A model generated the notes under the pieces. The model saw nothing but the letters and a program-made list of their open reading frames with translations, made no database searches and was not told the origin of the DNA. From Lepas anatifera (taxonomy: Eukaryota; Arthropoda; Thecostraca; Lepadidae), in contig JAOTON010001526.1 of NCBI GenBank assembly GCA_034440635.1, positions 1,187,001 to 1,251,000 of the forward strand: DNA of 64,000 bases, given 5' to 3'. Shown here one piece after another: positions 1 through 60,452 of the stretch (position 1 is its first letter; every line of letters begins with the position of its first letter). The translations under genes were made by a program, and so were the position numbers.

Positions 1-162
1 ACAATAAGAAACATTATCATTGCATTTCATTGTCTGTCTCATTTTTGTGTATCACTTTCTCTTTGACTAGCTTTCCTGCAGCCTCTTTGTGTACCGGACA
101 CGTTGTCTAATTTCGGTAAGAGTTAGTCATTGGTCGACACAAGTTAGAGGCACAAAACCTGT

Positions 163-1296
163 TACCCGTTACCTGTTGGGAACAGGTAACAGGTTTGGTG
201 TTACCTGTTGTCGGGGTCCGTTCGGTGTAAAGTCAGTGTTACCTGTATTAGGGATCCGTTCGGTGCAGTCAGTTACCTGTTGTCGGGGTCCGTTCGGTAT
301 AAAGTCAGTGTTACCTGTAGTCGGGGTCCGTTCGGTATAAAGTCAGTGTTACCTATAGTCGGGGTCCGTTTGGAGCAGTCAGTGTTACCTGTTGTCGGGG
401 TCCGTTCGAAGCAGTCAGTATTACCTGTTGCCGGGGTCCGTTCGGTATAAAGTCAGTGTTACCTGTTGTCAGGGTCCGTTCGGTAGCAGTCTGTGTAACC
501 TGTCGTCGGGGTCCGTTGGTATCGGAGAAGTCAGTGTTACCTGTTGTCGGGGTCCGTTCGGTATAAAGTCAGTGTTACCTGTTGTCGGAGTCCGTTCGGT
601 ATAAAGTCAGTGTTACCTGTTGTCGGGGTCCGTTCGGTATAAAGTCAGTGTTACCTGTTGTCGGGGTCCGTTCGGTATAAAGTCAGTGTTACCTGTTGTC
701 GGGGTCCGTTCGGTATAAAGTCAGTGTTACCTGTTGTCGGGGTCCGTTCGGTATAAAGTCAGTGTTACCTGTTGTCGGGGTCCGTTCGGTATAAAGTCAG
801 TGTTACCTGTTGTCGGGGTCCGTTCGGTATAAAGTCAGTGTTACCTGTTGTCGGGGTCCGTTCGGTATAAAGTCAGTGTTACCTGTTGTCGGGGTCCGTT
901 CGGTATAAAGTCAGTGTTACCTGTTGTCGGGGTCCGTTCGGTATAAAGTCAGTGTTACCTGTTGTCGGGGTCCATTCGGTATAAAGTCAGTGTTACCTGT
1001 TGTCGGAGTCCGTTCGGTATAAAGTCAGTGTTACCTGTAGTCGGGGTCCGTTCGGTATGCAGTCAGTGTTACCTGTTGTCGGGTTCCGTTTGGAGTAAAG
1101 TCAGTGTTACCTGTTGTCGGGGTCCGTTCGGTATAAAGTCAGTGTTACCTGTTTTCGGAGACCGTTCGGTATAAAGTCAGTGTTACCTGTAGTCGGGGTC
1201 CGTTCGGAGCAGTCAGTGTTACCTGTAGTCGGTGTCCGTTCGGAGCAGTCAGTGTTACCTGTAGTCGGGGTGCGTTGGGTGTAAAGTTAGTGTTAC
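163..1296 (-). repeat. 38-bp tandem array made of repeated Duox exon 4 5' splice sites
   Basis: About 30 head-to-tail copies of a 38-bp unit fill the start of Duox intron 4. On the gene's strand each unit carries CCCCGACAACAG|GTAACA and then CTGACTTTATACCGAACGGA, so every copy holds the end of exon 4 plus its GT donor. The copy next to the exon keeps the exon's own CCCAACGCACCCCGAC, while distant copies have drifted to CCGAACGGACCCCGAC. A run of central copies (about 600-960) is nearly identical, which points to recent homogenisation. The far edge ends in a hairpin, GTTACCTGTT-ggg-AACAGGTAAC (168-190). 38 is not a multiple of 3, so use of a distal donor would shift the frame. Confidence 0.95.
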
Positions 1297-1481
1297 CTGT
1301 TGTCGGGGTGCGTTGGGAGCAAAGCCGCTGTTGGACTGGTCGTACCGCGAGCGCAGCAGCGGCAGCAGAGTGTGACCTGGCATCTCACGGTACCGGTGTC
1401 CCTCTGGAATCTCGATATTGAAGTACTCCGGTGGACAGCCGGGCCGCTGCGCGTCCAAAATCTCCTCCACTACCTGTTGAC
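1297..1481 (-). CDS. Duox: Duox exon 4, peroxidase-homology domain
   Basis: 185 nt entered in phase 1 (acceptor GTGACAG|GT) and left in phase 0 (donor CGACAACAG|GTAACACT). It encodes QQVVEEILDAQRPGCPPEYF, NIEIPEGH and LLRSRYDQSNSGFAPNAPRQ, which match the Duox family in order and spacing. The last bases of this exon together with its donor are the founder of the tandem array at 163-1296, so the true donor cannot be told apart from its copies by sequence alone. I chose the first donor after the last family-like residues. Confidence 0.9.
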
Positions 1482-4400
1482 CTGTCACCAGACAATGACG
1501 TAACAGTCATGGCCTTCCGAACGAGAGGTGGGGTAAGAGTCACGGGCACTCCCGCTTGTCAGGCAAAATTTTCCGATTTTAATCATATTGAATGTTTCCA
1601 AACAGCCTGAGCCAAAAGCAAAACGAAACCGAACCCCAATAACATTTGGCTTTTCAAGTGGTTAGTTCTTTGTCAACAAGGGATTCGAAGTTGCAAATTT
1701 ACAGGTCCATAATATTTTTTTCAATGGCGATGTCCATGAATATGGCTAGAACTTATCATCTTCTTTGGAGCCTTTACTCCTTCTCAGGAAAGACAGGAAA
1801 GCTTGGGGGCGGCTTTCTGCTCTGGCCATTTGGGGAACAGAGGTGCCCCTCACTGAGTTTTGGCTGCGCAACTATTTTCTGCTGTACTGTTTGACCTGAA
1901 ATATTTTGAAAAAATGTTGAATTTTGGGACAGAAAACTACTCTTTGAAAGTTTGTCACCATAGCTCTACATAATGTTCCATAACATTTTAATGCCCCTTC
2001 CGGCCCACTAAACATGATAAAAAATCCTTACAGGTTTCAGTCGGTAGGTCTACCCCCCACCTATTAGTGAATTCTAGTAAAAGGTGGCGATACTCCTGCT
2101 GCTATTAGTACATGAGCTGAAACAACTACGGTGCATCTCACAAGCTAAATTCATAATTCCCTTGCACTGTCCCACTTCGCTAATTAACCTACTTCTGAAA
2201 CCATATAAGGCATCGGCAGCTTGCAATCATCTAACGAAGCTTAGCTAATTAAATGACAATTCATTGAATTCAGAGAACGCTTCAAGACTTAAACCACCGC
2301 CTATCTCGCTCCCAAAACAAACTAGCTACCACTGGGTTTCGAGGTGCCACATCAGAGCTGCATCACCTGCAGCCCCTCACTCACCGAAGTAGACGAGCAG
2401 CGCCGACTTGCCGGTGCGGGAGTGGTTGCCGCTGCTGCCGGACATGATGGCGTCCGAGATTTCTATGGGGTTGGGCCGCTTGCCGCCGGAGGGCTGGTAC
2501 ACACCGTCGGCGTAGGCGGGCGGAAGCTTACGCAGCAGCGGCTTCTCTGCACAGAGCACGAACTGGTTTGTGTACAGGGTTAACATGGGCTGAAGACCGT
2601 GGCGGATACAAGGGGGTGGGCACCGAAAATGTTGGAGTGCCTATAGTTAACCCTCGCCCGGTGGGGGTTGTTTGAACACCCCCTCGGGTTTTTCAGGTGG
2701 CACGAAAAAATGGCGGCGCGAGGCGCCGTCGTGCTCGGCACGCCTTATCCTTGATTGATTCCGCAACTTTCCCAAAAGTTTAAGTTTGAGTCATCTCAGG
2801 TCAGGTCACAAGTGCAGGTCAAGTGGCCTCACCTAAAAAATGTTTAGGGTGGCATAAGTAAGAAATGGGTCAATCTATCGGATGGAAACTTATAGCACAT
2901 AATGGCCCCATCAAATTCTACAAGACATGTTCCGATATTTTGCATATCGGTGACCTAAGGTCAAGTACGGACCATAACCTCTCCATTGGAAGTACATGGA
3001 AAAACAGAAAATGGCCTGTATTTGTGTGGATAAAGCTGATAATGCCTTCATATTCTCGAAATCAAAGTATCCTGAGCCCCTTTTCTGGCTAATATTGCAA
3101 TTTGTACCTGTGACCTCTGAGAGGTCATCTGGAGCTACTTTGGCAGTTTTCAGACTCAGGTCAATAACTTTGCATGAAATGAGGATACAGCTTTTATTTT
3201 TATACCATTGCGTTTGAATTGCTATTGCGAGTCGATTTATATGGATCTTGACTATGCTAGGTCAAAGGTGACCTTGACCTGTCCTGAGGTCAGGTCATTT
3301 TTGTGTTTTGACTTAGTATGGTCATATTTAACATCTTTTGATTCGCCGTGACGGAGGATGCGAATGGCGCCCACAGTGATTCTAACTCAACTCTGTCAGC
3401 TGCAAGAGCCCAAAAATGGCTCAAAATGCCAACTTCTTTGAACTGTCAAGACCTCAAAGTGAAATTGACCTGAGCCAAAAAGTGACTGATATAGTTGGGT
3501 CATTCATTCCACCATAAATCGACCAAGGCATAAAACCGTACTATTTTTAATTTCCTCCAAAATTGGTGCATGGGGACTCACAAGGGCGTAGAATCCACCC
3601 ATGGCACCCAAAAAATTATTTAAAAATTAGTTTGGGAAAAATGGCCTCCGGCAATTTCTGAAGGTCATTATACAGGCCTTGATTAGAATGCCTGTAGCTC
3701 CAAAAGTTTTCAAGTGATTTCTGAAAAATTTATAATTTTAGGATGTAAATTCTACGGGCAGCACTTTGGCTATCTTCAATTTTGAAATTTAACCCTTGCC
3801 CCGGTGGCGGGTACGAGTCACCTTCGCCCTGGTGGGGGGCTAAAAAAGACCCCCACGATCTCAAAAACTAAGAGAGCTAGAAAAAATTGCAAAACGGCAA
3901 TCGAAAGCTCTTGAAAAATCATTTCGAAACTACTTTGGTCATTTTTCTTGTCAGGTCAATATCAAGGTCACCAGAGGTCAAAATAGGTCAAAATCGCTAA
4001 TATGAGGTGTACTAAGAAAACCTCATATATCTCAGAAACTATGATAGCTAGAAACATTTTTTTAACACCATTCGAAAGCTCTTGAGATGCTCTTTCATTA
4101 CAGAAGCATTCATTTTCGTGTCAGGTCAAAGCCGAGGGAGCTACAGGTCACTGAATATTGGGAATATTCTTCGGAATGTCCATAGCCACCCATGCAGAAG
4201 GGCGTTTACGTTTTCACTAATAGCTTCCAAACCAAACAAGATACAGCCATAGTTTATGCACCATTGCAATCCTCTCTTCAATACGAATCGAATGATATGA
4301 AATTGCTATGCCAGGTCAAATTTAAGAATTTGACCTGACCCAGGTCAAAGGTCTGACCCAACTTGACCTGGTATAGTCATGATGTATATAATTTGACTTG

Positions 4401-7400: not shown

Positions 7401-10400
7401 CATAAAGGTCTACCCTGATAAAAATGAACCTCGAAGACTGGAAGATAATATTCTGGGACAGTTCATGAGCAAATGATGCAAAAGAACGATACGAGTCTGG
7501 AGCATTCACGTGAAAACGGGTACAGGCGCCCAAATGACCCCAACATGCCTCCACTCTTGAGGTCATAACTCCGTAACCTTGAAGGGTAGGAACAATTCTT
7601 TTGGCAAGATGTCCGCAATGAATGCGTCAGAGGCTATATAAAATTTCAAGACTCTGACTTAAGAAGCTCGTTTTCAATTCTTGAAAAACCTGAGGGGGCT
7701 GCAACACCCCCCCTGTACGTGTAAGGGTTTACACCCCCTATGGCGTTGACGGGAAAGAAATTGGTTGAAAATTCCATGGCGCCCCTCTTAAATTCGGAAG
7801 TTCCGTCGTCACTGGCATTAACCATACCGTGAGTTAGGATGGTACAGCTCCATAGTGACACCTAGTGTCATGTTTCGGAAGTAAGAAGTAGTATATTTAG
7901 CGCGAAAGCCATATTTATTATTACTTTACCTAAACTATTATTTCCAAAGGTAAAAATTTTTTTACACGAATTTATAAATTTCACTGTACTGCGGGTCAAG
8001 GTCACCGTTCAAAAACTAGGTCACGGGGTCATGACGTCAATTTTTCCGAAATATAAAAATCGAAGATAGCCAAATTGAAATGTGCTAAATTTTGAACAAA
8101 AATGTAAAATATCGTTACAATCGTTTAAAAAATTGCAAAATTATAGGCTTTCCAAACAATGCCTACATGGTGACGCCCGAAAAATGCCGGAGGCTATATC
8201 TGCCATACCAAATTTTCAAATAATTTTTGGCACCATGGTTAGATTCTACACCTTTGAAACCACCTTGACACCAATTTCGGAGAGAATCAAAATTAGAAGG
8301 GTTCTATTTTACGAAATTTTTGGTCGATTTATGGTGGAATGACCCAGTTTCTTCATGAATTTTTATGAGCTATTCACCAGTGTAGCGTTTTTCGCTATCC
8401 CGCATAGGAGCCGAGTTCGAGAGGGAATGTCTAAACACCCCCCACCAGGGCCAAGGTGGCTCGGAGGCCCTCCGGGGCGCGGGTTAAAGGCAAAATAGAT
8501 CGGTATTTGAAATTTGGTTGATGAAGGGTTTGGGTTTTGTATCCCTGCCGAGGAAGTGACGTTTGGGACCGTAGCACTGTCCTGGCTACCTGAGATAGTT
8601 TTTTTTACTGCAGCGTAAGAGCTGTCTTTGCTTAAAAGTACTGATTTGAGAGAAAATGTTCTGAGGCCAAAGTTAAAACATTTTTTGCACGTAGTGTGAT
8701 ATTTTTCGTCCCTGTCGATCCTAGCGACGATCACTCTACCAGACTTGGGGCGTTCCAAAACACATCGACCAGCACTATCTAGATTCCACATACCTCCATG
8801 AGGTGCCACGTACTTTTGGGTAATTGTATCATCTCTTAGGGTACGAAAAAAGATGAGTGCGTTTACTTCACCTTCTAAAGGAGACTCTTTTTTATTATGG
8901 TATTAACACGTTCACTACCCATGGGGAAAACGGCCTTCATGGTAAAGGAGGTCAGATATCAGGTGAGCTACCGCTCATGAAGCCCATTGCACCGCAAAAT
9001 TTACATTATGAGAGAAACAAAAACGAAATCAGGGTTTTTCATTGTCCAACGCAACTGATTGATCAGCTAAAATCCCATGAAGGTGCAACATTCCCTTTAA
9101 TGTTTCTCTGAATACGTAAACGCATGAGAAGATTAGTGCTAATCGGTATATTTATAACGTGCGTAGAAAACAAAAAAACGACGAAAAAATTATCAGATGC
9201 ATTTTTGCACTCTTGCCATTTTTCTGGCATACTTTTCAACAGATAAATAGTTGATGACGCCATATAAACCTGACTGTTGGTGCCTCGGTACGTCCCGAAA
9301 AAATTATTAATCGGCTGTGCTCGCTAATTTATCACTCCCTTCTAACCGTCTGCCTGTTGGTCGGTCGGTCGCTCGGTCATCTGTCCGTTTGTCTGCCAGG
9401 TACTCACCGGACGCGCCCAAATCAGGATGGGCGAAGTTGTTGTACCAGCCATCGAAGCCCTCGTACTCCACCGGTCGGTACTGGTACGGCTGACAGCGCG
9501 TGCCGGGGATGCCGCTACAGCCATCTAGTAGCCACACAAGTAAGCCCAGCTTCTGCTCACGCCCACTTCCGCGCACCCAGTCCGTCGGCTTCGCAACTGT
9601 GGAAGTAAGCGTTGACATCGACCAGCATCCGTCACCGACAGTGAAGATGCCTTCACTTCTTCACCACTCTGACAAGATGGAAACAATCACCATTTGAATT
9701 CCAGTGTTCCAGTGCTCCCCGAGACTCAGTATCAGGAGTCGTCCGACAGGTATTCTTGGTTGCCCTCGATAAATAGCCTAAGCGATGCCCCGAGTTTTGG
9801 TCTAAGGGGCCCCGAGAGTCTTTCTCAGAGACCCCCCCAATAGTCAGTCTCGGGGAATGCCTAACAGTTTCAGAGACCCCTAGAAGTCAGTCTTAGCCCC
9901 CTCCCCTCCCCTTGAAAGCTAATAATGTCGCTTCTAGACAGGGCATTTTTTAAGGAAAAGTCAGTGGGGGGGGCATTTCTTGTGCTGGCCATTATAGTGT
10001 CTTCAGGGGATCAAGACCCCATTTTCAGGGGTGTTTAATAAAACTTAGACGCTTTAGTGTTAAACAAATTTTTTTCAATTTTTGTGTTATTCCATTTTAT
10101 ACCAGATTATAGATGCTGCCCAAGGCTGCCAAGTTTTTTTCGGCAGAAAAGGTCAAACCGAGTCAGAAAAAGGGCCAAAGGGGGGCGAAATTTTATTTTC
10201 ACTAAAATGGCCAAATAGATACCACAAAAGACAGATTTGAGGCTAAAAAACCCTATCGGTAGACATGAGCCCACAAAAAAAACGACTTGTATCACTATTT
10301 AAAACTAATTGTTGACAGTTTGATATTGACTTGACGCAATATATTTTTAGCACACCACTCATCTTATAGGACGCCAATCCCGCGTGACCAGCAAATTATT

Positions 10401-21539: not shown

Positions 21540-24500
21540 GTAAGTCGTAGAATCAGCTATCAGCTGGGTACATATAAAACATTGTATTTATTTTTACATG
21601 TATTCTATAGATCCACGATTAAACCGTTTACAAGCAAAATAGCAACAACGACATTATGTTTGCCCAATCGCGCTGAATCGCAGCGCACTGACTTTCGTTT
21701 GTTGACGACATCAGCTGAGTGTATTGACTGTTGTTTGTTGACGACACCAGCTGAGAGCAGCGACTCGCTTGTTGACGACATCAGCTGAGTCCAGTGACTG
21801 TTGTTTGTTGACGACACCAGCTAAGTGCAGTGACTAAGTGCAGTCGTTTTGTCTTCCGCGCGTTTCTTTTTGTTCTCTTCTGTTTGCAGCTTTTTGTTTT
21901 TTGTTCTGTTCGTTGGTCTGATTCGATTAGTGTCTTATTCTTGATCTCGCCGAACACTTCTTCGTCCTGCTTACTTGCTGAAACATGTCTTCTCCTTGTT
22001 TTTTGTTTTGTTTTGTTTTTGTTTTGTATTTGTATTGGCTTGGTTTGTTCCTCCTTATTTTCGCTTAGTAATGGTTTCGTTAGACTAAACAACGCAACAT
22101 ATGTGGGTCCGCTACTTATCTACTGTACTTATCTATTAATAATTTACTACGTTGATTTGTATTTGTTCCTGTCTGTTTTGTTTGCGCTCAACTTTCACTT
22201 GCTTGCAAGTGTGTTTTGGCATTATGTTTTCTCCTCAGTTCGTTTGTTCTGTTTCGTTTGTTTTTGTAACGGCTCTTCTCGTTTTCGTAATCTAACTACG
22301 TGCTCGCTTGCTTCCTTTTGTTCGATGCTGTATACCTATGTCTTCCTTTTGTTGCTCCTTATTGCTTTGCTCTGCTCATGTCATCTCTTGCTGTTCTGTT
22401 CCCTTACTTCTGTTCCCTATCATTATGTAAAAATGATATAAAAGATCATGATGATGATGACTGTTGTTTGTTGACGACATCAGCTGAGAGCAGCGACTCG
22501 CTGGTTGACGACAACAGCTGAGTCCAGTGACTGTTGTTTGTTGACGACACCAGCTAAGTGCAGTGACTGTTGTTTGTTGACGACATCAGCTGAGGGCAGT
22601 GACTGTCGTTTGTTGACTGAGTGTCAGCTGAGTGTATTGACTGTTATTTGTTGATGCCATCAGTTGAGAGCAGTGACTCGTTTGTTGACGACATCAGCGG
22701 AATGTATTGACTGCCGTTTGTTGACGACACCAGCTGAATGCAGTGACTGCTGTTTGTTGACGGCATCAGCTGAATGCAGTGACTGTTTGTTGACGACACC
22801 AGCTGAGTGCAGTGCCTGTTGTTTGTTGACGACACCAGCTGAGTGCAGTGACTGTTGATGACATCAGCTGAATGCAGTGACTGTTGTTTGTTGACGACAC
22901 CAGCTAAGTGCAGTGACTGTTGTTTGTTGACGACATCAGCTGAGGGCAGTGACTGTCGTTTGTTGACGACATCAGCGGAATGTATTGACTGCCGTTTGTT
23001 GACGACACCAGCTGAATGCAGTGACTGTTGTTTGTTGACGACACCAGCTGAATGCAGTGACTGTTGTTTGTTGACACCAGCTGAATGCAGTGACTGTTGT
23101 TTGTTGACGACACCAGCTGAGTGCAGTGACTGTTGTTTGTTGACGACACCAGCTGAGTGCAGTGACTGTTGATGACATCAGCTGAATGCAGTGACTGTTG
23201 TTTGTTGACGACATCAGCTGAATGCAGTGACTGTTGTTTGTTGACGACACCAGCTGAGTGCAGTGACTGCCGTTTGTTGATGACAGCAGCCGAGTGTATC
23301 AGCAGACGGTGCTTTGTTCCAGCTGTGGTACGTTCTGATCCGGGTGACGTGTAGCTGCCTGATCGGACTCATCCTCATGCGTAAGTAATGGTGCACACGA
23401 AAGAAGTTCCCTGCAGGATACATAAACAGCTTCCAGAATGCTCTATTTACGTACCAGGCACGGAACAGATTTATTGATTCATGTAAGCAGGATACTTCTT
23501 TCGAGATTTCTGGTTACATGAGTCGATAAGTCCTTTTCCGCGGTTGGTACGTAAATAGAGCGTGCTGAAGCTGCTCATGTATCCGGGGTAAGTAATGATC
23601 GAGCGATGTCATTGGCTCCAGATTTTTTTATCTAGGAAATGGACGATCGCTGCCTAGATGGTACGTTTGGTCAGTTCACCACATTTCAATTAAAGGTAAA
23701 ATTTAATTTGAATTAATGTTTGAAGTGTGCAGCATTGTATGGCCAAAGTGAGAAAAGTGAAAGTGAAAAATTATGAAGAAGGGAACAGGTCAAGAAGAAA
23801 TTGCTCTGCAATTCCCTTTTAGGGATTGTCCCACTTTTATAATGGGTTTTCAGCTGAGAGAGCATTGTTGTGGGGTGTGTCGAGAAACCACTATTGACAT
23901 TTTCGTTTCACCAAAAGCTCTCTGTACTAAATTCCTGGCACTTAGTTCGAAATAACATACCTGTCCCCCTGAGCGAAATAGAGGGGTCCAGACCCTGGAT
24001 CAATTGAGCAGAACGTGTTTGTCGGTAAGAACAGTTTTAAGCATTTTGTTTATTCAGAAGGCATGTACTTCTTTGAAGATGAAAGCAATTTCCCTGAAGA
24101 GAAAGCAAAACTGAAGGGGATCACCCCGCAGCGCGGTGTATTTTTCTAGTATGAGTTCCCCCTCCTCCAAACCAACAACTGGATCCGCTCCCACCGGCAA
24201 CATCACCTCTTCCGCTTTATGCAATTTCATGACTGCGTAGATGCCTCAGAAATGGTCTGGAAGGTGCAAAGGTGTAGCTGGTCTTATGCCATCCTTCCTT
24301 ACGGCTGAACCAAATTCAAGGCCAGGTTCCGTGAGTAATGAGTGAACGGATTCGCGGTGGAACCCCTTTAAAGAGGAGAAGAGAAGCCGAAACCATCTCA
24401 CTTTGTCGCGTATTGTGTCGATGTCTCCTCCCCATCCGTCCCAAGATTAAGTCTAGGAACATGACCGAAATACACCTGACCAGCAGATTTGGGTTCCCGC

Positions 24501-46627: not shown

Positions 46628-48291
46628 TTAGCTCTTAACATCAGGGAACTATGGCCTCGTGACTGGAGGTATGTGAGGGTTATTTGGACATCAGGACACA
46701 TTTCAGTCAGAGCTGAGGGCCTATCCATAAAATACTTAACATGTGTTCTTATAATTTTAATCCCCCTCCCTCATGGTAATACTTCCTTACGCCCTGTTGT
46801 AACGTCTAACAAAACGGTTGCTGCCTTCCCACCCCCTGTTTTTCCTTAGGTACTTTATGGACGGTCTCTTGTTTAGATCATCTTTTGATCCTGACTTAGG
46901 TCAGGGCCTATAACTTGGGAAACTGCTTCCAATACATTACAAAAGCTTCGGTTTATGTCGAACTGATGTGGTCAGGAAGGGTCTGAACGGGATTGAGATC
47001 GTACACGTGTATTGTCGATTACAACACAAACTATCCTATAATCAGAAACACCTCTCGATCACAGTGAGGACAACTCCGCACATGATCAGGGGTAGAACGC
47101 TACCCCTTCTCCGAGCACCAGAAAAATGTTCCACAATAAATACTTGGGCAAACACATGGAGCTGCGTGCCTCAGGGTTCGGTGGGTGAGTGAGTCAGTGA
47201 ACCCCTTTTCATGACCGCTACGAGGCGGGGGATCCCTAAGATCCGCCAAGGCGGTCACAAATGCGGGCGCCCTGCCCATGTGTCATGTTTATGTGCATGT
47301 GTGTGTACGCGCGGAGAATGACGACCCACCGACGCAAGGCGGGCCAAGAACATACAATTTGGTCACGAAAGTGGCCGAAGTGGAAAGAAGGAAATGGGCG
47401 CGGATCCTACCGCTGACTAGCTGCTAACTAGCGCAAAAAAGGGTAGCCAATCCACAGCCATGCTTAAACTGCCATTTGGCTAGCTTTGGTCCATCCCAGG
47501 TGACAATGGTGCGAGCTACAACCGCTTTCTCATTTAGAAAAATCAAGACATTTGCCCAATAGCAGTCTGTCCCCGGAAAAATACTGGGCCCGCCTCTGCG
47601 AGAGCACCTGTTACTGCGACGCGTCTGACCTTGCCCGCAGCGGTTCTTGGTCACCCGAAGGGTCGTAATGCGTGGAATACGCAGCGTACTACAGTTTACA
47701 ACCAACGTGTCACGTGGGCGATCTGTGTATCAGGATGAATGAACGAATGACCTGACATCTGTTGTTGGGGAAACAGGGTATTAGTTCTGATGGGTCATGT
47801 CGTGTGGCGCATGTGTCGAGGGTAACGCACCCTTAAAGTTTGAATTTTGAAGGGAAAATAATATTGAAAATGAAGTATCCATTCCAGCCCCAATTCTTTT
47901 TATGCCTGTGATCAAGGCCTTACAGCTTCCAAAAACCTGTTTTATGGCATGATTAATTGTATGAAAAATACTAAATATTTCTTATGAGCGGTTTATGGTG
48001 TAAAAAACTTTTCCAAATGTATACGCTTGTTTTGGAAAAAATGTAGAATTGTATGCTTCGACAAAGTGGAAAATTCCATTTAGAATGTAAAACATTCATC
48101 GCACTTGAGTTTTAAGGACACAACCGATAGGTTGAACACCACCTTTCAAGATAAATTGCTGCCGGCACTAGTTAGTTTCTCCCAGAAACAATAGCATATT
48201 CAATCCCTGGCCTACAAAAATTAATCCCCACAGCAATTGGAAAAAATTGAAGTCGATACAAAAATTGAAGTCGATACAAACTAAAACATAA

Positions 48292-51200
48292 CCTCGGCCT
48301 GCGGCCTCGGCAGGTGCCGCTCTGGCGCAGGAGAAGCCGGTGACAATGTACGTTAGCCAAACAGTTCGATTGACAGGCGAGTGTTTTCAGCAGTTTGATA
48401 CTTATAACAACGCAATGTTGGAGTTTTAGGTTTTGTGTTCTCATTATGGCTCCATTCAATCCCCTGTCTAGGCCCATGTTTTCCTAAATTAGCATGTCTC
48501 TGCATACTGCACCACGCTTGCCCTCTGTTCATATCATCAAAGAAATAAACACACGCATAATGTTTGTTTTGTTAAGCAAAGACTGGGCATGACGAGAAGA
48601 AAGGAGATACAATATAAAATATGATGGGTTTTCCGACGGTATTTCACCTATACCTGCAGATTTTCACCCAATTCAGCCTATTTGTTACCGAATTATGCCC
48701 CAGCTCGAGACCTCAGCCCCACCACCGAACTGATGTCCTGGATCCGCCTATGTTCGAGCTCCTTACCCCACCCCCTTACATATGTCCTGGATTTGCCTAT
48801 GCTCGAACTCAGTAGCCCCACCTCTATACTGCCCTGGATCCGCCTATGCTTGAACTCCTTAGCCACTACCCCTACTGATGTCCTGGATCCGCCTATGCTC
48901 GAGCTCCCGAGCCCCACCCACGTACTGATGTCCTGAATCCGCTTATGCTCGAGCTCCTTAGCCCCACCCCCGTACTGACGTCCTGGATCCGCTTATGTTT
49001 TAACTCTTTAGCCCCTACCTGTTTTAACTCTTTAGCCCCTTGAGGTCCTGGATCCGCTTATGCTCGAGCTCCTTAGCCCCACGCCCGTACTGATGTCTTT
49101 GATCCGCCTATACTCGAGCCCCTTAGCCCCGGCCCCGTACTGATGTCCTGGATCCGCCTCTGCTCGAGCTCCTTAGCCCGACACCCATACTGATGTCCTG
49201 GATCCGCCTATGCTCGAGCTCCTTAGCCCCATCTCCGTACAGATGTCCTGGATCCGCCTATGCTGGATCTCCTAGCCCCATCCCCGTACCGATATGCTGG
49301 ATCCGCCTATGCTCAAACCCCTTAGCCTCTAACCCCGTACTGATATCCTGGCTCCGCTTATGCTCGAGCTCCTTAGCCCCACACCCGTACTGATGCCCTG
49401 GATCCGCCTATGCCCGAACTCTTTAGCCCCTACCCCTCTGCTGATGTCCTGGATCCGCTTATGATTGAGCTCCTTAGCCCCACCTCTGTACTGATGTCCT
49501 TTATCCGCCTATACTCGAACCCCTTAGCCCCACCCCCGTACTGATGCCCTGCATCCGCCTCTGCTCGAGCTCCTTAGCCCCACACCCATACTGATGTCCT
49601 GGATCCGCCTATACTCCAGCTCTTTAGCCCCACCCCTGTACAGATGTCCTGGATCCACCTATGCTCGATCTCCTTAGCCCCACCCCCGTACTGATGTCCT
49701 GGATCCGCCTTTACTCAGGCTCCTGAGCCACACCCCTGCACTGATGTCCTGGATCCGCCTATGCTTGAGCACCTTAGCCCCACCCCCGAACTGATGTCCT
49801 GGATCTGCCTATGCTCGAACTCCGTAGCCCCACCTCCGTACTGCCCTGGATTCGCCTATACTCAAAATCTTTATTCCCTACCACCCTACTAATGTCCTGG
49901 ATCCGCCTATGCTGGAACGCCCGAGCCCCACCACCGTACTGATGTCCTGGATCCGCCTATGCTCGAGCTCCTTAGCCCCACCCCCGTACTGAGGCCTGGA
50001 TCCGCCTTTGCTGGAGCTCCTTAGCCCCACCCCCGTACTGATGTCCTGGATCCGCCTATGCTCGAACTTCTTAGCCCCACCTCCGTACTGATGTCCTTGA
50101 TCCGCATATGCTCGAACTCCTTACCCCTACCCCCCTACTGATGTCCTGGATCCGCCTATGCTCGAGCTCCTTACCCCACCTTCTTCCTGATGTCTTGGAT
50201 CCGCCTATGCTCGAACTCTGTAGCCCCTACCCCCCCCACTGATGTCCTGGATCCGCCTATGCTCGAGCTCCTTACCACACCCTCTTACTGATGTCCTGGA
50301 TCCGCCTATGCTCGAGCTCCTTAGCCCCATCCCCGTACTGAGGCCTGGATCCGCCAATGCTCGAACTACTTAGCCCCCACCCCCTACTGATGTCCTGGAT
50401 CCGACTATGCTCGAGCTCCCGAGCCCCACCCCCGTACTGATCAGCTGAATCCGCTTATGCTCGAGCTTCTTAGCCCCACCGCCGTACTGATGTCCTAGAT
50501 CCACCTCTGCTCGAGCTCCTTAGCCCCATCCCCGTACTAATATCCTGGATCCGCCTATGCTCGAACTCCGTAGCCCCTACCCCCTACTGATGTCCTGGAT
50601 CCGCCTATGCTGGAACATCCGAGTCTCACCCCGTACTGATGTCCTGATTCCGCTAATGCTCAGCTGCTTAGCCCCATCCCCGTACTAATGTCCTGGATTC
50701 GCCTATGCTCTAACTTCCTAGCCCGACCCTCGTACCGATGTCCTGGATCCGCCTATGCTCTAACTCCCTAGCCCGACCCTCGTACCGATGTCCTGGATCC
50801 GCCTATGCTCTAACTCCCTAGCCCCACCCTCGTACTGATGTCCTGGGTCCGCCTATGCTCGAACTCTTTAGCCCTTACCCCCATGCTGATGTCCTGGATC
50901 CGCTTATGCTCGATCTCATTACCCCCACACCAGTAACGCCCCACCTCCGTGCCCCCCGCCCCCGAAACGACATAGGCGGATACAAGGGGAAAGGGGACAG
51001 GTGCCCCCATAGAAACTTAGTGCCCCCTGAAATTGTCCCGGAAACCCCTGGAAAGTTCGATGGCACCCCCTGAAATGTCGGTTTCCCCGAGATGCAGGTA
51101 TCGGGGTCTACTGATAGGTTTTAGCGCCTACTTGATAGGTTTTTCCGGCCAAAAGTGGCGTCCCTGGTGTAGATAGCGCCCACCAGGAAGTTTCCCCTTC

Positions 51201-52562
51201 CACCTCGCCCCCGATAGGCAATCCTGGATCCGCGTATGGGAAGCGACATTTCAGGGAGCGTCATTCGCCTTGAGAGGCGTGTCTTTACAATTTCAGAGGG
51301 CGCCGATGGTCGATTGGGGGTTGGGGGAGGGGATGGGGGGAGAAGGGTGGGGGGGGGGGCACCTAGCTTATTTATTCCCTGGATCCACCCATGGTCCAAA
51401 AACAGAAACATAATACTGTTATTGTAAACTCAGACTTTTACGGTACTCTAATTACTTGTGATGCATTATGGGTAGTGTTGGGTACTTTTTACCAGACCAT
51501 AAATAAACAGAAACGGCCGCGCCGATCGCCGGCGTTGCCGCGACGTGGACGCAGGGGTGACGCGTGGTGATTTGCTACAACGATGCGTGGAGGAACGGCA
51601 TGTTAGTAAAGGTAACTTGGTGTTTCATTGATATATATGCAGATAGAATGTCGACATATGTCTCTTACCTAGCTGCATGCAAAATTTCATTTCCCTCCAA
51701 TGACTCTAACCACCCTAAACCCCGGTGTGAAGCAAAAATGAACTGATAAAATTACCACTTTGAAATGCATTTTACGGCTTATAGCGCGGAAGCCGTAAGA
51801 GATAAGTGGGGGTATCAGTGAGAAAAATGACGGCAACGAAGTTTTCTATCCAGCCGTGTTAAGTTCAATACCGTAGCTATCATGGTCTGGAAACCAGGGG
51901 GCTGAGAATAAAAATTTTAAAAACTTATATTTTATTTTTGCCTATAAAATAAAAAGTTTCAGCCTGAAGGTTTTTATCTCTAAATATATAATAAAGGAGG
52001 CTATTCTCTCTTATTATCTGAAATGGGAACTAATTTTTATCAATTAGATCGGAAGATATAAGGGTTTGAATCATATTTTGGGAAATGCAGACCTTCACGG
52101 AATGGGCCAAAAAGGACCCTTAAATTTCCGTTTTTGTTTTGTTTCTGTGTTTGTGCAGTACTGCACAAACCGGCCTTTAAGTTGACATTTGACTCAGAAC
52201 CTGAACTGCTGTAGCTTCAGATATTTCGAGCCTGTAGTTTAGACCATGAGTTTTATGCCAAATTTAGGGTGCAAAGATTAAAAGCTAATTTGGAGCCCTA
52301 AATTTAGAGCTTTTTCTTTCCAACTTTTTGTGTGAACTACAAATTTCCCTGATGTAAAAGGGTGCAAGTTTGAAGAGTCTAGATGAATTAGCAAAAAATA
52401 GAAAAATAAAAGTTAAAAATCACATAATGCAAAATTCTGGGCAAAATTTTGAAAATTTTGAAAATTGACAACCGTGGTGCTTATTCATTTGGAAGTGCCT
52501 TCTATCCACAAAAATTTTAGGTCTCTGATACCAGCGCTCAGAACAGACAACAACAACAACAA
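48292..52562. repeat. Higher-order satellite, copy 1 (4.27 kb)
   Basis: Three parts in order. The first is a head block (48,292-48,715) starting CCTCGGCCTGCGGCCTCGG. The second is a 50-bp minisatellite of about 44 units (48,716-50,935) with CTGATGTCCTGGATCCGCCT ATGCTCGAGCTCCTTAGCCC. The third is a 1.6-kb tail block (50,940-52,560) with a TTCAGGG-type region, a CpG-rich patch (GGCCGCGCCGATCGCCGGCG), a hairpin (TTACGGCTT-n9-AAGCCGTAA at 51,772), a 20-bp palindrome at 52,150 and a terminal (CAA)n. The left edge, near 48,290, follows an 18-bp tandem repeat (AAAAATTGAAGTCGATAC). No protein is coded. Confidence 0.92.
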
Positions 52563-55500
52563 CCTCGGCCTGCGGCCTCGGCTGGTGCCGCTCTGGCGCA
52601 GGAGAAGCCGGTGACAATGTACGTTAGCCAAACAGTTCGATTGACAGGCGAGTGTTTTCAGCAGTTTGATACTTATAACAACGCAATGTTGGAGTTTTAG
52701 GTTTTGGGTTCTCATTATGGCTCCATTCAATCCCCTGTCTAGGCCCATGTTTTCCTAAATTAGCATGTCTCTGCATACTGCACCACGCTTGCCCTCTGTT
52801 CATATCATCAAAGAAATAAACACACGCATAATGATTGTTTTGTTAAGCAAAGACTGGGCATGACGAGAAGAAAGGAGATACAATATAAAATATGATGGGT
52901 TTTCCGACGGTATTTCACCTATGCCTGCAGATTTTCACCCAATTCAGCCTATTTGTTACCGAGTTATGCCCCAGCTCGAGACCTCAGCCCCACCACCGAA
53001 CTGATGTCCTGGATCCGCCTATGCTCGAGCTCCTTACCCCACCCCCTTACATATGTCCTGGATCTGCCTATGCTGGAACTCCGTAGCCCCACCTCTATAC
53101 TGCCCTGGATCCGCCTATGCTTGAACTCCTTAGCCCCTACCCCTACTGATGTCCTGGATCCGCCTATGTTCGAGCTCCCGAGCCCCACCCACGTACTGAT
53201 GTCCTGAATCCGCTTATGCTCGAGCTCCTTAGCCCCACCCCCGTACTGATGTCTTTGATCCGCCTATACTCGAGCCTCTTACCCCAGCCCCGTACTGATG
53301 TACTGGATCCGCCTCTGCTCGAGCTCCTTAGCCCAACACCCATACTGATGTCCTGGATCCGCCTATGCTCGAGCTCCTTAGCCCCACCTCCCGTACAGAT
53401 GTCCTGGATCCGCCTATGCTGGATCTCCTTAGCCCAATCCCCGTACCGATATGCTGGATCCGTCTATGCTCAAACTCCTTAGCCTCTACCCCCGTACTGA
53501 TATCCTGGCTCCGCTTATGCTCGAGCTCCTTATCCCCACCCCCGTACTGATGTCCTGGATCCGCCTATGCTCGAACTCTTTAGCCCTTACCCCTGTGCTG
53601 ATGTCCTGGATCCGCTAATGCTTGAGCTCCTTAGCCCCACCTCTGTACTGATGTCCTTTATCCGCCTATACTCGAACCCCTTAGCCCCACCCCCGTACTG
53701 ATGCCCTGGATCCGCCTCTGCTCGAGCTCCTTAGCCCCACACCCATACTGATGTCCTGGATCCGCCTATGCTCCAGCTTTTTAGCCCCATCCCCGTACAG
53801 ATGTCCTGGATCCGCCTATGCTCGAGCTCCTTAGCCCCACCCCCGAACTGATGTCCTGGATCTGCCTATGCTCGAACTCCGTAGCCCCACCTCCGTACTG
53901 CCCTGGATTCGCCTATACTCGAACTCTTTAGCCCCTACCACCCTACTATTGTCCTTGATCCGCCTATGCTGGAACGCCCGAGCCCCACCACCGTACTGAT
54001 GTCCTAGATCCGCCTATGCTCGAGCTCCCGAGCCCCACCCCCGTACTGATCAGCTGAATCCGCTTATGCTCGAGCTTCTTAGCCCCACCCCCGTACTGAT
54101 GTCCTGGATCCGCCTATGCTCGAACTCTTTAGCCCCTACCCACGTGCTGATGTCCTGGATCCGCTTATGCTCGAGCTCCTTAGCCTCACCCCCGTACTGA
54201 TGTCCTTGATCCGCCTATACTCAAGCCCTTTAGCCCCACCGCCGTACTGATGTCCTAGATCCGCCTCTGCTCGAGCTCCTTAGCCCCACACCCATACTGA
54301 TGTCCTGGATCAGCCTATGCTCGAGCTCCTTATCTCCACCCCCGTACAGATGTCCTAGATCCGCCTATGCTCGATCTCCTTAGCCCCATCCCCGTACTAA
54401 TATCCTGGATCCGCCTATGCTCGAACTCCGTAGCCCTACCCCCTACTGATGTCCTGGATCCGCCTATGCTGGAACTCCCGAGTCTCACCCCGTACTGATG
54501 TCCTGAATCCGCTAATGCTCAGCTGCTTAGCCCCATCCCCGTACTAACGTCCTGGATCCGCCTATGCTCTAACTCCCTAGCCCGACCCTCGTACCGATGT
54601 CCTGGATCCGCCTATGCTCTAACTCCCTAGCCCGACCCTCGTACCGATGTCCTGGATCCGCCTATGCTCTAACTCCCTAGCCCCACCCTCGTACTGATGT
54701 CCTGGGTCTGCCTATGCTCGAAATCTTTAGCCCCTACCCCCATGCTGATGTCCTGGATCCGCTTATGCTCGAGCTCCTTACCCCCCACACCCGTAACGAC
54801 CCCACCTCCGTGCCCCCCCGAAACGACATAGGCGGATCCAAGGGGGAAAGGGGACAGGTGCCCCCCATAGAATCTTAGCGCCCCCTGAAATTGTCCCGGA
54901 AACTCCTGGAAAGTTCGATGGCACCCCCTGAAATGTCGTTTTCCCCGAGATGCAGGTATCGGGGTGTACTGATAGGTTTTAGCGCCTACTTGATAGGTTT
55001 TCCGGCCAAAAGTGGCGTCCCTGGTGTAGATAGCGCCCACCAGGAAATTTCCCCTTCCACCTCGCCCCCGATAGGCAATCCTGGATCCGCGTATGGGAAG
55101 CGACATTTCAGGGAGCGTCATCGACCTTGAGAGGCGTGTCTTTACAATTTCAGAGGGCGCCGATGGTCGATTGGGGGTTGGGGGAGGGGGATGGGGGAGA
55201 AGGGTGAGGGGGCACCTAGCCTACTTATTCCCTGGATCCACCCATGGTCCAAAAACAGAAACATAATACTCTTATTGTAAACTCGGACTTTTACGGTACT
55301 CTAATTACTTGTGATGCATTATGGGTAGTATTGGGTACTTTTTTACCAGACCATAAATAAACAGAAACGGCCGCGCCGGTCGCCGGCGCTGCCGCGGCGT
55401 GGACGCAGGCGTGACGCGTGGTGATTTGCTACAACGTTGCGTGGAGAAACGGCATGTTTGTAAAGGTAACTTGGTGTTTCATTGATATCTATGCAGATGG

Positions 55501-56423
55501 AATGTCGACATATGTCTCTTACCTAGCTGCATGCAAAATTTCATTTCCCTCCAATGACTCTAACCACCCTAAACCCCGGTGTGAAGCAAAAATGAACTGA
55601 TAAAATTACCACTTTGAAATGTCCTTTACGGCTTATAGCGCGGAAGCCGTAAGAGATAAGTGGGGGGTATGAGTGAGAAAAATGACGGCAACGAAGTTTT
55701 CTATCCAGCCGTGTTAAGTTCAATACCGTAGCTATCATAGTCTGGAAACCAGGGGGCTGAGAATAAAAATTTTAAAAACTTATATTTTATTTTTGCCTAT
55801 AAAATAAAAAGTTTCAGTCTGAAAGTTTTTATCTCTAAATATATAATAAAGGAGGCTATTCTCTTTTATTATCTGAAATGGGAACTAATTTTTATCAATT
55901 AGATCGGAAGATATAAGGGTTTGAATGATATTTTGGGAAATGCAGACCTTCACGGAATGGGCCAAAAAGGACCCTTAAATTTCCGTTTTTGTTTTGTTTC
56001 TGTGTTTGTGCAGTACTGCACAAACCGGCCTTTAAGTTGATATTTGACTCAGAACCTGAACTGCTGTAGCTTCAGATATTTCGAGCCTGTAGTTTAGACC
56101 ACGAGTTTTATGCCAAATTTAGGGTGCAAAGTTTAAAAGCTAATTTGGAGCACTAAATTTAAAGCTTTTTCTTTCCAACTTTTTGTGTGAACTACAAATT
56201 TCCCTCATGTAAAAGGGTGCAAGTTTGAAGAGTCTAGATGAATTAGCAAAAAATAGAAAAATAAAAGTTAAAAATCACATAATGCAAAATTCTGGGCAAA
56301 ATTTTGAAAATTTTGAAAATTGACAACCGTGGTGCTTATTCATTTGGAAGTGCCTTCTATCCACAAAAGTTTTAGGTCTCTGATACCAGCGCTCAGAACA
56401 GACAACAACAACAACAACAACAA
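52563..56423. repeat. Higher-order satellite, copy 2 (3.86 kb)
   Basis: The same three parts in the same order: head block 52,563-52,985, minisatellite 52,988-54,795 (about 36 units) and tail block 54,800-56,423. The tail block is almost identical to that of copy 1, while the minisatellite differs in unit number, so unit gain and loss goes on inside an otherwise conserved frame. The 20-bp palindrome is at 56,005-56,024. Confidence 0.92.
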
Positions 56424-59400
56424 CCTCGGCCTGCGGCCTCGGCAGGTGCCGCTCTGGCGCAGGAGAAGCCGGTGACAATGTACGTTAGCCAAACAGTTCG
56501 ATTGACAGGCGAGTTTTTTCAGCAGTTTGATACTTATAACAACGCAATGTTGGAGTTTTAGGTTTTGTGTTCTCATTATGGCTCCATTCAATCCCCTGTC
56601 TAGGCCCATGTTTTTCTAAATTAGCATGTATCTGCATACTGCACCACGCTTGCCCTCTGTTCATGTCATCACATAAATAAACACACGTATAATGTTTGTT
56701 TTGTTAAGCAAAGACTAAGCATGACCAGAAGAAAGGCGATGCAATATAAAATATGACGGGTTTTCCGACAGTATTTTACCTATACCTGCAGATTTTCACC
56801 CAATTCAGCCTATTTTTTTTACCGAGTTATGCCCCAGCTCGAGACCTCAGCCTCACCACCGAACTGATGTCCTGGATCCGCCTATGCTCGAGCTTCTTAC
56901 CCCAACCCCTTACATATGTCCTGGATCTGCCTATGCTCGAACTCCGTAGCCCCACCTCTATACTGCCCTGGACCCGCCTATGCTTGAACTCTTTAGCCCC
57001 TACCCCTAATGATGTCCTGGATCCGCCTATGCTCGAGCTCCCGAGCCCCACTCCCGTACTAAAGTCCTGGATCTGCTTATGTTTTAACTCTTTAGCCCCT
57101 ACCTGTTTTAACTCTTTAGCCTCTTGATGTCCTGGATCCGCTTATGCTCGAGCTCCTTAGCCCCACCCCCGTACTGATGTCTTTGATCCGCCTATACTCC
57201 GGATCCGCCCCGTACTGATGTCCTGGATCCGCCTCTGCTCGAGCTCCTTAGCCCGACACCCATACTGATGTCCTGGATCCGCCTATGTTCGAGCTCCTTA
57301 GCCCCATCTCCGTACAGATGTCCTGGATCCGCCTATGCTGGATCTCCTAGCCCCATCCCCGTACTGATATGCTGGATCCGCCTATGCTCAAACCCCTTAG
57401 CCTCTAACCCCGTACTGATATCCTGGATCCGCTTATGCTTGAGCTCCTTAGCCCCACCTCTGTACTGATGTCCTTTATCCGCCTATACTCGAACCCCTTA
57501 GCCCCACCCCCGTACTGATGCCCTGGATCCGCCTCTGCTCGAGCTCCTTAGCCCCACACCCATACTGATGTCCTGGATCCGCCTATACTCCAGCTCTATA
57601 GCCCCACCCCCGTACAGATGTCCTGGATCCACCTATGCTCGATCTCCTTAGCCCCACCCCCCGTACTGATGTCCGGGATCCGCCTTTACTCAGGCTCCGG
57701 AGCCACACCCCTGCACTGATGTCCTGGATCCGCCTATGCTCGAGCTCCTTAGCCCCACCCCCGAACTGATGTCCTGGATCTGCCTATGCTCGAACTCCGT
57801 AGCCCCACCTCCGTACTGCCCTGGATTCGCCTATACTCAAACTCTTTATTCCCTACCACCCTACTAATGTCCTGGATCCGCCTATGCTGGAACGCCCGAG
57901 CCCCACCACCGTACTGATGTCCTGGATCCGCCTATGCTCGAGCTCCTTAGCCCCACCCCCGTACTGAGGCCTGGATCCGCCTTTGCTGGAGCTCCTTAGC
58001 CCCTACCCCCCCTACTGATGTCCTGGATCCGCCTATGCTCGAGCTCCTCACCCCACCTTCTTCCTGATGTCTTGGATCCGCCTATGCTCGAACTCCGTAG
58101 CCCCTACCCCCCCCACTGATGTCCTGGATCCGCCTATGCTCGAGCTCCTTACCCCACCCCCTTACTGATGTCCTGGATCCGCCTGTGCTCGTACTTCGTA
58201 GCCCCACCTCTTTACTGCCCTGGATCCGCCTATGCTCGAACTACTTAGCCCCCACCCCCTACTGATGTCCTGGATCCGACTATGCTCGAGCTCCCGAGCC
58301 CCACCCCCGTACTGATCAGCTGAATCCGCTTATGCTCGAGCTTCTTAGCCCCACCGCCGTACTGATGTCCTAGATCCGCCTCTGCTCGAGCTCCTTAGCC
58401 CCATCCCCGTACTAATATCCTGGATCCGCCTATGCTCGAGCTCCGTAGCCCCTACCCCCTACTGATGTCCTGGATCCGCCTATGCTGGAACTCCCGAGTC
58501 TCACCCCGTACTGATGTCCTGATTCCGCTAATGCTCAGCTGCTTAGCCCAATCCCCGTACTAATGTCCTGGATCCGCCTATGCTCTAACTCCCTAGCCCG
58601 ACCCTCGTACCGATGTCCTGGATCCGCCTATGCTCTAACTCCCTAGCCCGTCCCTCGTACCGATGTCCTGGATCCGCCTATGCTCTAACTCCCTAGCCCC
58701 ACCCTCGTACTGATGTCCTGGGTCCGCCTATGCTCGAACTCTTTAGCCCTTACCTCCATGCTGATGTCCTGGATCCGCTTATGCTCTATCTCCTTACCCC
58801 CACACCAGTAACGCCCCACCTCCGTGCCCCCCCGCCCCCGAAACGACATAGGCGGATCCAAGGGGAAAGGGGACAGGTGCCCCCCATAGAATCTTAGCGC
58901 CCCCTGAAATTGTCCCGGAAACCCCTGGAAAGTTCGATGGCACCCCCTGAGATGTCGTTTTCCCCGAGATGCAGGTATCGGGGTCTACTGATAGGTTTTA
59001 GCGCCTACTTGATAGGTTTTTCCGGCCAAAAGTGGCGTCCCTGGTGTAGATAGCGCCCACCAGGAAGTTTCCCCTTCCACCTCGCCCCCGATAGGCAATC
59101 CTGGATCCGCGTATGGGAAGCGACATTTCAGGGAGCGTCATCGACCTTGAGAGGCGTGTCTTTACAATTTCAGAGGGCGCCGATGGTCGATTGGGGGTTG
59201 GGGAGGGGATGGGGGAGAAGGGTGGGGGGGGGCACCTAGCCTACTTATTCCCTGGATCCACCCATGGTCCAAAAACAGAAACATAATATTCTTATTGTAA
59301 ACTCAGACTTTTACGGTACTCTAATTACTTGTGATGCATTATGGGTAGTGTTGGGTACTTTTTACCAGACCATAAATAAACAGAAACGGCCGCGCCGATC

Positions 59401-60419
59401 GCCGGCGTTGCCGCGACGTGGACGCAGGGGTGACGCGTGGTGATTTGCTACAACGATGCGTGGAGAAACGGCATGTTAGTATAGGTAACTTGGTGTTTCA
59501 TTGATATATATGCAGATGGAATGTCGACATATGTCTCTTACCTAGCTGCATGCAAAATTTCATTTCCCTCCAATGACTCTAACCACCCTAAACCCCGTTG
59601 TGAAGCAAAAATGAACTGATAAAATTACCACTGTGAAATGCATTTTACGGCTTATAGCGCGGAAGCCGTAAGAGATAAGTGGGGGTTATAAGTGAAAAAA
59701 TGACGGCAACGAAGTTTTCTATCCAGCCGTGTTAAGTTCAATACCGTAGCTATCATGGTCTGGAAACCAGGGGGCTGAGAATAAAAATTTTAAAAACTTA
59801 TATTTTATTTTTGCCTATAAAATAAAAAGTTTCAGTCTGAAAGTTTTTATCTCTAAATATATAATAAAGGAGGCTATTCTCTTTTATTATATGAAATGGG
59901 AACTAATTTTTATCAATTAGATCGGAAGATATAAGCGTTTGAATGTTATTTTCGGAAATGCAGACCTTCACGGAATGGGCCAAAAAGGACCCTTAAATTT
60001 CCGTTTTTGTTTTGTTTCTGTGTTTGTGCAGTACTGCACAAACCGGCCTTTAAGTTGATATTTGACTCAGAACCTGAACTGCTGTAGCTTCAGATATTTC
60101 GAGCCTGTAGTTTAGACCATGAGTTTTATGCCAAATTTAGGGTGCAAAGTTTAAAAGCTAATTTAGAGCCCTAAATTTAAAGCTTTTTCTTTCCAACTTT
60201 TTGTGTGAATTACAAGTTACCCTGATGTAAAAGGGTGCAAGTTTGAAGAGTCTAGATGAATTAGCAAAAAATAAAAAAATAAAAGTTAAAAATCACATAA
60301 TGCAAAATTCTGGGCAAAATTTTGAAAATTTTGAAAATTGACAACCGTGGTGCCTATTCATTTGGAAGTGCCTTCTATCCACAAAAGTTTTAGGTCTCTG
60401 ATACCAGCGCTCAGAACAG

Positions 60420-60452
<33 letters not shown>
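56424..60452. repeat. Higher-order satellite, copy 3, ending in an expanded (CAA)n
   Basis: Head block 56,424-56,845, minisatellite 56,850-58,810 (about 39 units) and tail block 58,815-60,418, then (CAA) about ten times. The palindrome is at 60,023-60,042. In place of a fourth head block, a different minisatellite begins. The shared order of 50-bp unit variants in copies 1 and 3 (for example the GTTTTAACTCTTTAGCC insertion near 49,005 and 57,085) suggests these two are closer to each other than to copy 2. Confidence 0.9.

Follow-up and report, generated by a model that had tools for sequence, protein, structure and literature searches.

The closest described counterpart of the locus reported here is intron 7 of human factor VII (F7), in which 37-bp tandem repeats lie at the exon/intron border with a donor site in each repeat (PMC6627357, which cites Borensztajn et al. 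2006 as the primary paper on this repeat). The first repeat holds the authentic donor, and under normal conditions splicing is confined to this most upstream site, for which 'oriented scanning' was reported; a mutation at position +5 of the first donor resulted in exon skipping and in the use of downstream donors, without functional protein (PMC6627357). In the Rogers model, introns are gained by tandem duplication of a segment containing AGGT, with vertebrate ATP2A1 and the 24-bp AGGT repeats of two fission yeast genes as examples (PMC4974935). Tandem donors four bases apart have been described (PMC2423196), as have tandem repeats in intron 1 of earthworm metallothionein genes (PMC12783039); the latter resemble the present case as minisatellite-like arrays in an invertebrate intron, and the accessible part of that report does not describe a splice border in the unit. 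The literature searched, which included a word search of the barnacle genome paper (PMC8917513, where the Lepas anatifera RNA-seq accession SRR6818896 is listed), yielded no account, in the accessible parts of the texts, of recurrent border arrays within a single gene or among barnacles, and reports of them may exist. A border minisatellite with repeated donors is thus known from factor VII; what is new in the barnacle Duox gene is its scale and its recurrence.

The window analyzed is a 64,000-nucleotide stretch of the Lepas anatifera genome. A mitochondrial-type COX1 copy from this assembly (L019), translated with the invertebrate mitochondrial code, showed 100% identity to a Lepas anatifera COX1 across 97% of the query, ahead of an unnamed barnacle hit at 95% and the next named one (Balanomorpha) at 92%. 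Coordinates are window positions, with 0 for the base adjacent to the window on its left and negative numbers further left; a slash marks a splice border. The array-bearing gene lies on the minus strand and is identified by homology as Duox (dual oxidase). The minus-strand exons at 2546-2385 and 1481-1297 matched Dual oxidase 1 in the PDB (E = 2e-20), and a Pfam scan of these exons (Duox exons 3-4) found An_peroxidase, the animal haem peroxidase family. The Duox proteins of Amphibalanus (P0122) and Pollicipes (P0121) were aligned by tblastn as exon blocks in order, with 26 ordered exon matches of P0122 covering residues 37-1543 of 1620. The match to full-length Duox therefore holds exon by exon and in order, and we infer that the gene is intact across the matched span. 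The matched exon blocks extend from 9594 in the window to ~60.6 kb left of the window edge. Its 25 introns were defined by a splice-site fit in which every exon pair had to join stop-free and ties were broken by U1 pairing; for a few ends the fit scored low, and these are uncertain.

The first upstream coding exon matched by the homologues used lies at 9408..9594 (minus strand; tblastn and splice fit). A 162-nt exon at 2385..2546 (minus strand; barnacle Duox tblastn and splice-site fit), with a phase 1 end at TTCG/GTGAGT, precedes the 185-nt exon at 1297..1481 (minus strand; PDB, Pfam An_peroxidase and gene model), which encodes QQVVEEILDAQ...SGFAPNAPRQQ and is the source of the repeat unit. 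The latter is called exon 4 here, a label taken over from an earlier, sequence-only reading of this DNA. Intron 4 is 1,495 nt long in total, with its in-window part at 1..1296 (minus strand; gene model) and its end at -198, and the following exon begins at -199, just outside the window (...TTCTGTTGCAG/CTGAACGAGATCACGCCATGG).

Directly behind exon 4 lies a tandem array of 29 units, each composed of exon tail plus intron start (205..1296, minus strand; TRF and unit list). TRF reported the repeat at 198-1314 with a period of 38, 29.7 copies, 90% matches and a score of 1750. Read in the gene's sense, 30 AG/GT sites run from 1296 down to 204, since every unit starts with GT and ends with AG and donor 30 then follows at 204. 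As in the factor VII type of border minisatellite, the repeat starts at and includes the exon/intron border and a donor is present in each repeat (30/30 AG/GT). The units are 38 bp long in 22/29 cases, 36 bp in four, and 41, 37 and 34 bp in one each, and together account for 73% of intron 4 (1,092 of 1,495 nt). CAG/GTAA is found at 28/30 donor sites, and CAG/GTAACACT at 25/30, which are identical from -3 to +8.

The sequence-only reading, whose span of 163-1481 corresponds to the array plus exon 4, had described about 30 tandem copies of a 5' splice site behind Duox exon 4, with a 38-bp unit containing the exon 4 end and the donor; both descriptions are borne out by the TRF result, the 30 AG/GT sites and the match between exon and unit. 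Exon 4 ends, in the gene's sense, with ...CCCCGACAACAG before the 29 units begin, and its last 21 bases match unit 1 at 20/21 positions and the other units at 15 to 19. The same reading held that exon sequence is best preserved in the copies closest to the exon, which is true of unit 1 and does not extend to units 2-4, where 17, 18 and 16 bases match versus 19 in the homogeneous central units. An exon end lying elsewhere would have detached the array from coding sequence; on checking, the exon end proved correct, and because the exon is Duox and the next exon starts at -199, the array touches a coding exon. Since the exon tail encodes a conserved part of Duox, the direction of copying was from exon to array. 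The unit is estimated from the alignment to comprise ~27 bases of exon tail and ~11 bases of intron start. The array carries a GGA codon where the exon has GCA, and the idea that GGA is an ancestral fossil was rejected, as Amphibalanus has Ala like the Lepas exon (Pollicipes has Ser at this residue); the array is therefore probably the derived side.

Among the 29 units 17 are distinct, and the nine central ones (units 10-18) are identical. Varied units lie toward both array ends, where the shorter units have a more exon-like middle (TGCTCC and near forms). Identical central units together with varied ends are the usual look of minisatellite homogenization. A search of the 1.04-Gb genome with two units, which was word-based and skipped very common words, returned 15 matches, all inside this array.

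Donor 1 (1295..1296, minus strand; CAG/GTAACACT) is the sole frame-keeping donor of the 30, as judged by homologue alignment and coding outcome. Its junction product reads PRQQ/LNEITPWLDGG, and 119 of 120 homologues aligned across the junction (120 listed of 726 found) are ungapped there, most of the 120 listed having PRQQ or a one-residue variant before it. Homology thus identifies donor 1 as the predicted productive junction. One beetle protein (P0230, Aromia moschata) carries an insert exactly at QQ/LN of Duox; the insert looks like an exon extension or an annotation slip at an intron of the same position, and hints that the position of intron 4 may be older. Only with donor 1 does the reading frame stay open across the following two exons, and 29/29 of the others lead to a stop: donor 2 shifts the frame and meets a stop at the start of exon 5, and for donors 3 to 30 (28 donors) the stop is the TAA within the GTAA of donor 2.

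Donor 1 is a weak site. It has C rather than G at +5, and its calculated pairing with U1 is -8.0 kcal/mol; among the other 24 Duox donors, 14 pair more strongly and 10 more weakly. Eight array-side sites were also scored, six of them at -8.0 or -8.1 kcal/mol. With equal donors an intron-side site could win, as in vitro work indicates. By analogy with factor VII, the exon-proximal donor would be the one used in the cell.

These outcomes bear on two functions previously proposed for the array. Buffering of the splice site against mutation is out, because each of the 29 other donors ends in a premature stop and the array cannot stand in for a lost donor 1; the +5 mutation of factor VII likewise gave no functional protein. 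Isoforms staggered by 38 nt are conceivable as unproductive RNAs, and the part of that proposal concerning useful isoforms falls with the 29 stops.

The array is most likely a near-neutral minisatellite that was seeded by tandem duplication of the exon 4/intron 4 border of Duox, with the exon-proximal donor chosen in splicing. A tandem duplication would have captured the end of exon 4 together with the donor, and unequal exchange or slippage would later have homogenized the center of the array. Splicing would take the exon-proximal donor, either through exon definition or through 5'-to-3' 'oriented scanning', leaving the 29 further donors as mostly ignored decoys, any use of which would give a stop-containing RNA. 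More generally, the exon-proximal copy, bounded by a real exon, would serve splicing on the donor side and on the acceptor side alike. The array itself would be near neutral, tolerated because the productive site stands first in line beside the exon. It resembles the factor VII repeat in having border repeats that each contain a donor, the first nearest the exon, the use of the Lepas sites being predicted from that analogy. It differs in its 38-bp unit, its 30 donors, and its gene and phylum, in a terminal hairpin with an anti-donor arm, and in the presence of similar arrays, acceptors included, at other borders of the same gene. The copy number of the factor VII intron 7 repeat is about 5 to 8. 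With 30 near-identical donors of which the first alone fits the protein, the Lepas locus offers a naturally occurring test of spliceosomal choice between equal sites, and it asks if the exon-proximal choice of the short human case extends to 30 arthropod copies.

Regulated unproductive splicing would be a functional alternative, in which donors 2-30 give early-stop RNAs that are degraded, so that the array and its copy number tune Duox. This is consistent with the stops behind all 29 alternative donors and with the sequence of the units, in which AGGT is the sole invariant 4-mer among 38 circular 4-mers and AG/GT is kept in 30/30 sites. As a test of position, however, this invariance amounts to 1 in 38 and is confounded by homogenization, and the use of donors 2-30 is a supposition from the DNA. 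We consider such regulation unlikely. Because all 30 sites retain AG/GT, the same observation faintly suggests that the decoy donors are not being weeded out.

The GT...AG structure of the units also invites the possibility that they excise themselves, the extensions from donor 1 to donor k being spliced out or the intron being removed stepwise, with CAG/GTAACA restored each time. Recursive splicing (ratchet) sites consist of a pyrimidine tract followed by AG/GT, and the Lepas unit boundaries are similar in having AG directly followed by GT. The array likewise parallels the Rogers model of intron gain in that tandem copies with AG/GT at each join delimit GT...AG units (29/29 extensions), and a branch-point-like CTRAC motif is present in 29/29 units, in one or more cases just 6 nt before the unit end. 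The would-be acceptors, however, have a mean of 0.5 T in 17 positions versus 5.6 at the 25 Duox acceptors, and 7.3 pyrimidines versus 10.6, and the shortest modeled Duox intron is 100 nt, so that one or two units would be too short. The array therefore has AG/GT and a candidate branch point and lacks the pyrimidine tract that ratchet sites and acceptor-capable Rogers copies have. It differs further from recursive splicing in its short intron and 30 consecutive sites, and from the Rogers model in that a real donor was already part of the segment that was duplicated and an existing intron houses the copies. The missing pyrimidine tract makes self-excision or recursive splicing highly improbable.

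A similarly slim chance is given to a role of the array as a U1 trap, in which dozens of U1 sites would guard the transcript from early polyadenylation or retain it rather than splice it: CAG/GTAA does offer seven bases of U1 complementarity, in one orientation, at 28/30 sites, but an intron of 1,495 nt leaves little to protect. That an ordinary intron minisatellite or an assembly effect met the exon by chance is the least credible reading, since, frequent as arrays are (35 in 164 kb and 20 in five 10-kb stretches), the unit includes the exon tail and the donor itself, and misassembly would not invent an array whose units differ from one another (17 distinct of 29), although the central copy number could be mis-sized in the assembly.

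Seeding of a minisatellite at an exon border was also evaluated at the other junctions of the gene. For each of the 50 Duox junctions, 28 bases across the junction were compared with its own intron, with the other introns of the gene as control. A border copy of at least 20/28 in the own intron was found at 5/50 junctions (26, 21, 27, 27 and 20 bases), and one more junction reached 18/28, one above its own controls; the maximum among the controls was 18/28 in 1,062 cross-intron comparisons. A GTA-like repeat at donor -4227 and a GA microsatellite at locus L043 were excluded from the border-copy count. The claim of the sequence-only reading that an exon border can seed a satellite is supported by these five copied Duox borders and by a peroxidase locus, L050, described below.

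A second donor array begins at donor -31980 (~-31948 to -32280; L012) and consists of 50-bp units with six GTAA donors, five of which read CAG or CGG/GTAAG; each of the five extra donors leads to a stop. Acceptors are copied in the same manner. At acceptor -21576 (~-21251 to -21595; L011), four copies lie 74 or 77 bp apart, every copy having GGCAG and the exon start; all four decoy acceptors retain GGCAG and lead to a stop, and the last acceptor is the productive one. Preceding acceptor -59734 is a 74-bp array of 2.7 copies that includes the exon start, in which both full upstream copies have CTCAA in place of the CTCAG of the real site, so that the decoy acceptors are broken. In addition, the exon end and donor that open intron 5 recur within that intron ~330 nt downstream, and the 3' end of intron 4, before the acceptor, forms a weak array with a 23-bp period (4.9 copies, 71% matches), built from branch-point-like, pyrimidine and AG modules. 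The acceptor array at -21576, with five similar sites of which the last alone is productive, is a mirror image of the donor array, and the choice of the exon-proximal copy is thereby testable on both sides in one transcript.

The proximity of arrays to Duox junctions was assessed with tests that, like the border-copy comparison, were picked after the pattern had been seen, and on that footing array edges lay within 35 nt of a junction for 6/12 arrays (expected 1.10, p 0.0004), for 6/22 when arrays down to 1.8 copies were admitted (expected 1.97, p 0.011), and with p values from 0.0001 to 0.011 across five filter settings. Arrays that contain a junction were weakly in excess (4, expected 1.37, p 0.033; 1.74 expected with the looser list, p 0.08). 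Two of the six junction-near arrays (-4227 and -199) include little or no exon sequence. Among 35 arrays of at least 2.5 copies in a 164-kb stretch, two have an AGGTRA consensus, namely the 38-bp and the 50/101-bp arrays, both at Duox donors.

In peroxidase genes such border copies were rare. In 15 stretches around peroxidase exons, arrays were not enriched at exon edges (3/12, expected 4.38, p 0.9), a count in which the 42-bp array of L050 was scored as a miss, its own exon being absent from the HMM list. A strong border copy (28/28) was found at 1/78 edges of 39 homology-defined peroxidase exons, and one further edge of the 78 was one base above controls. Of 64 HMM-based edges, 4 were above controls: a pyrimidine-rich array at an acceptor (28/28), a GA microsatellite at a donor (28/28), and two that exceeded controls by one base (18 and 19). 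Pooled over Duox and peroxidase exons, strong border copies amount to 6/128 edges.

The L050 array (C285, ~2505-2342, minus strand) consists of four 42-bp copies in which the end of a peroxidase exon (HFTTQ) is followed by its donor, GTGAGAA. It is in frame and stop-free, so that use of each further donor would lengthen the product by 14 residues (VRSHRSTDTHFTTQ and near forms), and one of its donors is GC. At L048 (720-1282, minus strand), a ~22-bp array of branch-point-like and pyrimidine modules abuts a peroxidase acceptor, and at L043 (5916-6179, gene on the minus strand) a ~260-bp GA microsatellite runs from an apparent peroxidase donor (GTGAGAGAGA...). Because of the strong border copy at L050, border seeding is not confined to Duox, but in this small sample it is infrequent outside that gene. 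Given that arrays around peroxidase exons are not enriched and 1/78 edges is strong, border seeding may be special to Duox, or the Duox cases a chance cluster. We therefore put forward only tentatively the broader idea that splice borders in this barnacle repeatedly give rise to satellites, such that introns would grow from their edges through tandem duplication of exon ends with a donor or an acceptor, a sizeable share would start or end with arrays of near-equal sites, and the exon-proximal copy would win on both sides. If border seeding is general, it would provide a route for intron lengthening and for in-frame exon repeats like those of the 42-bp peroxidase locus.

The intron-side end of the 38-bp array is marked by a hairpin (151..200, minus strand; fold and inverted repeats). 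Folded as 210-150, it reached -30.2 kcal/mol (z -5.96), and 0/200 shuffles were as good. In one arm lies TGTTACCTGTT, which is exactly complementary to the donor core AACAGGTAACA, and the other arm carries two further AG/GT sites beyond the array, at 172 and 158. Among the 25 longest of 31 pairs, the anti-donor arm finds 20 exact 11-base partners within the array, one of them donor 1. The hairpin may be the mark of an inverted duplication at the growing end of the array; in the transcript, the fold would mask the extra sites at 172 and 158.

Other repeats were recorded in the same material. The sampled 10-kb stretches contributed their 20 arrays at a threshold of at least 1.8 copies. Within the window, a 36-bp minisatellite at 21685-23296 comprises one block of 23.9 copies and another of 4.2 copies and lies at least 12 kb from the nearest modeled Duox junction, and the region at 48290-60442 is built from a ~4-kb tandem unit (longest matches 88-92% identical), each with a ~2-kb minisatellite of 50-bp period. 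Several mitochondrial COX1 copies, differing in completeness, were present in nuclear contigs (L019-L024).
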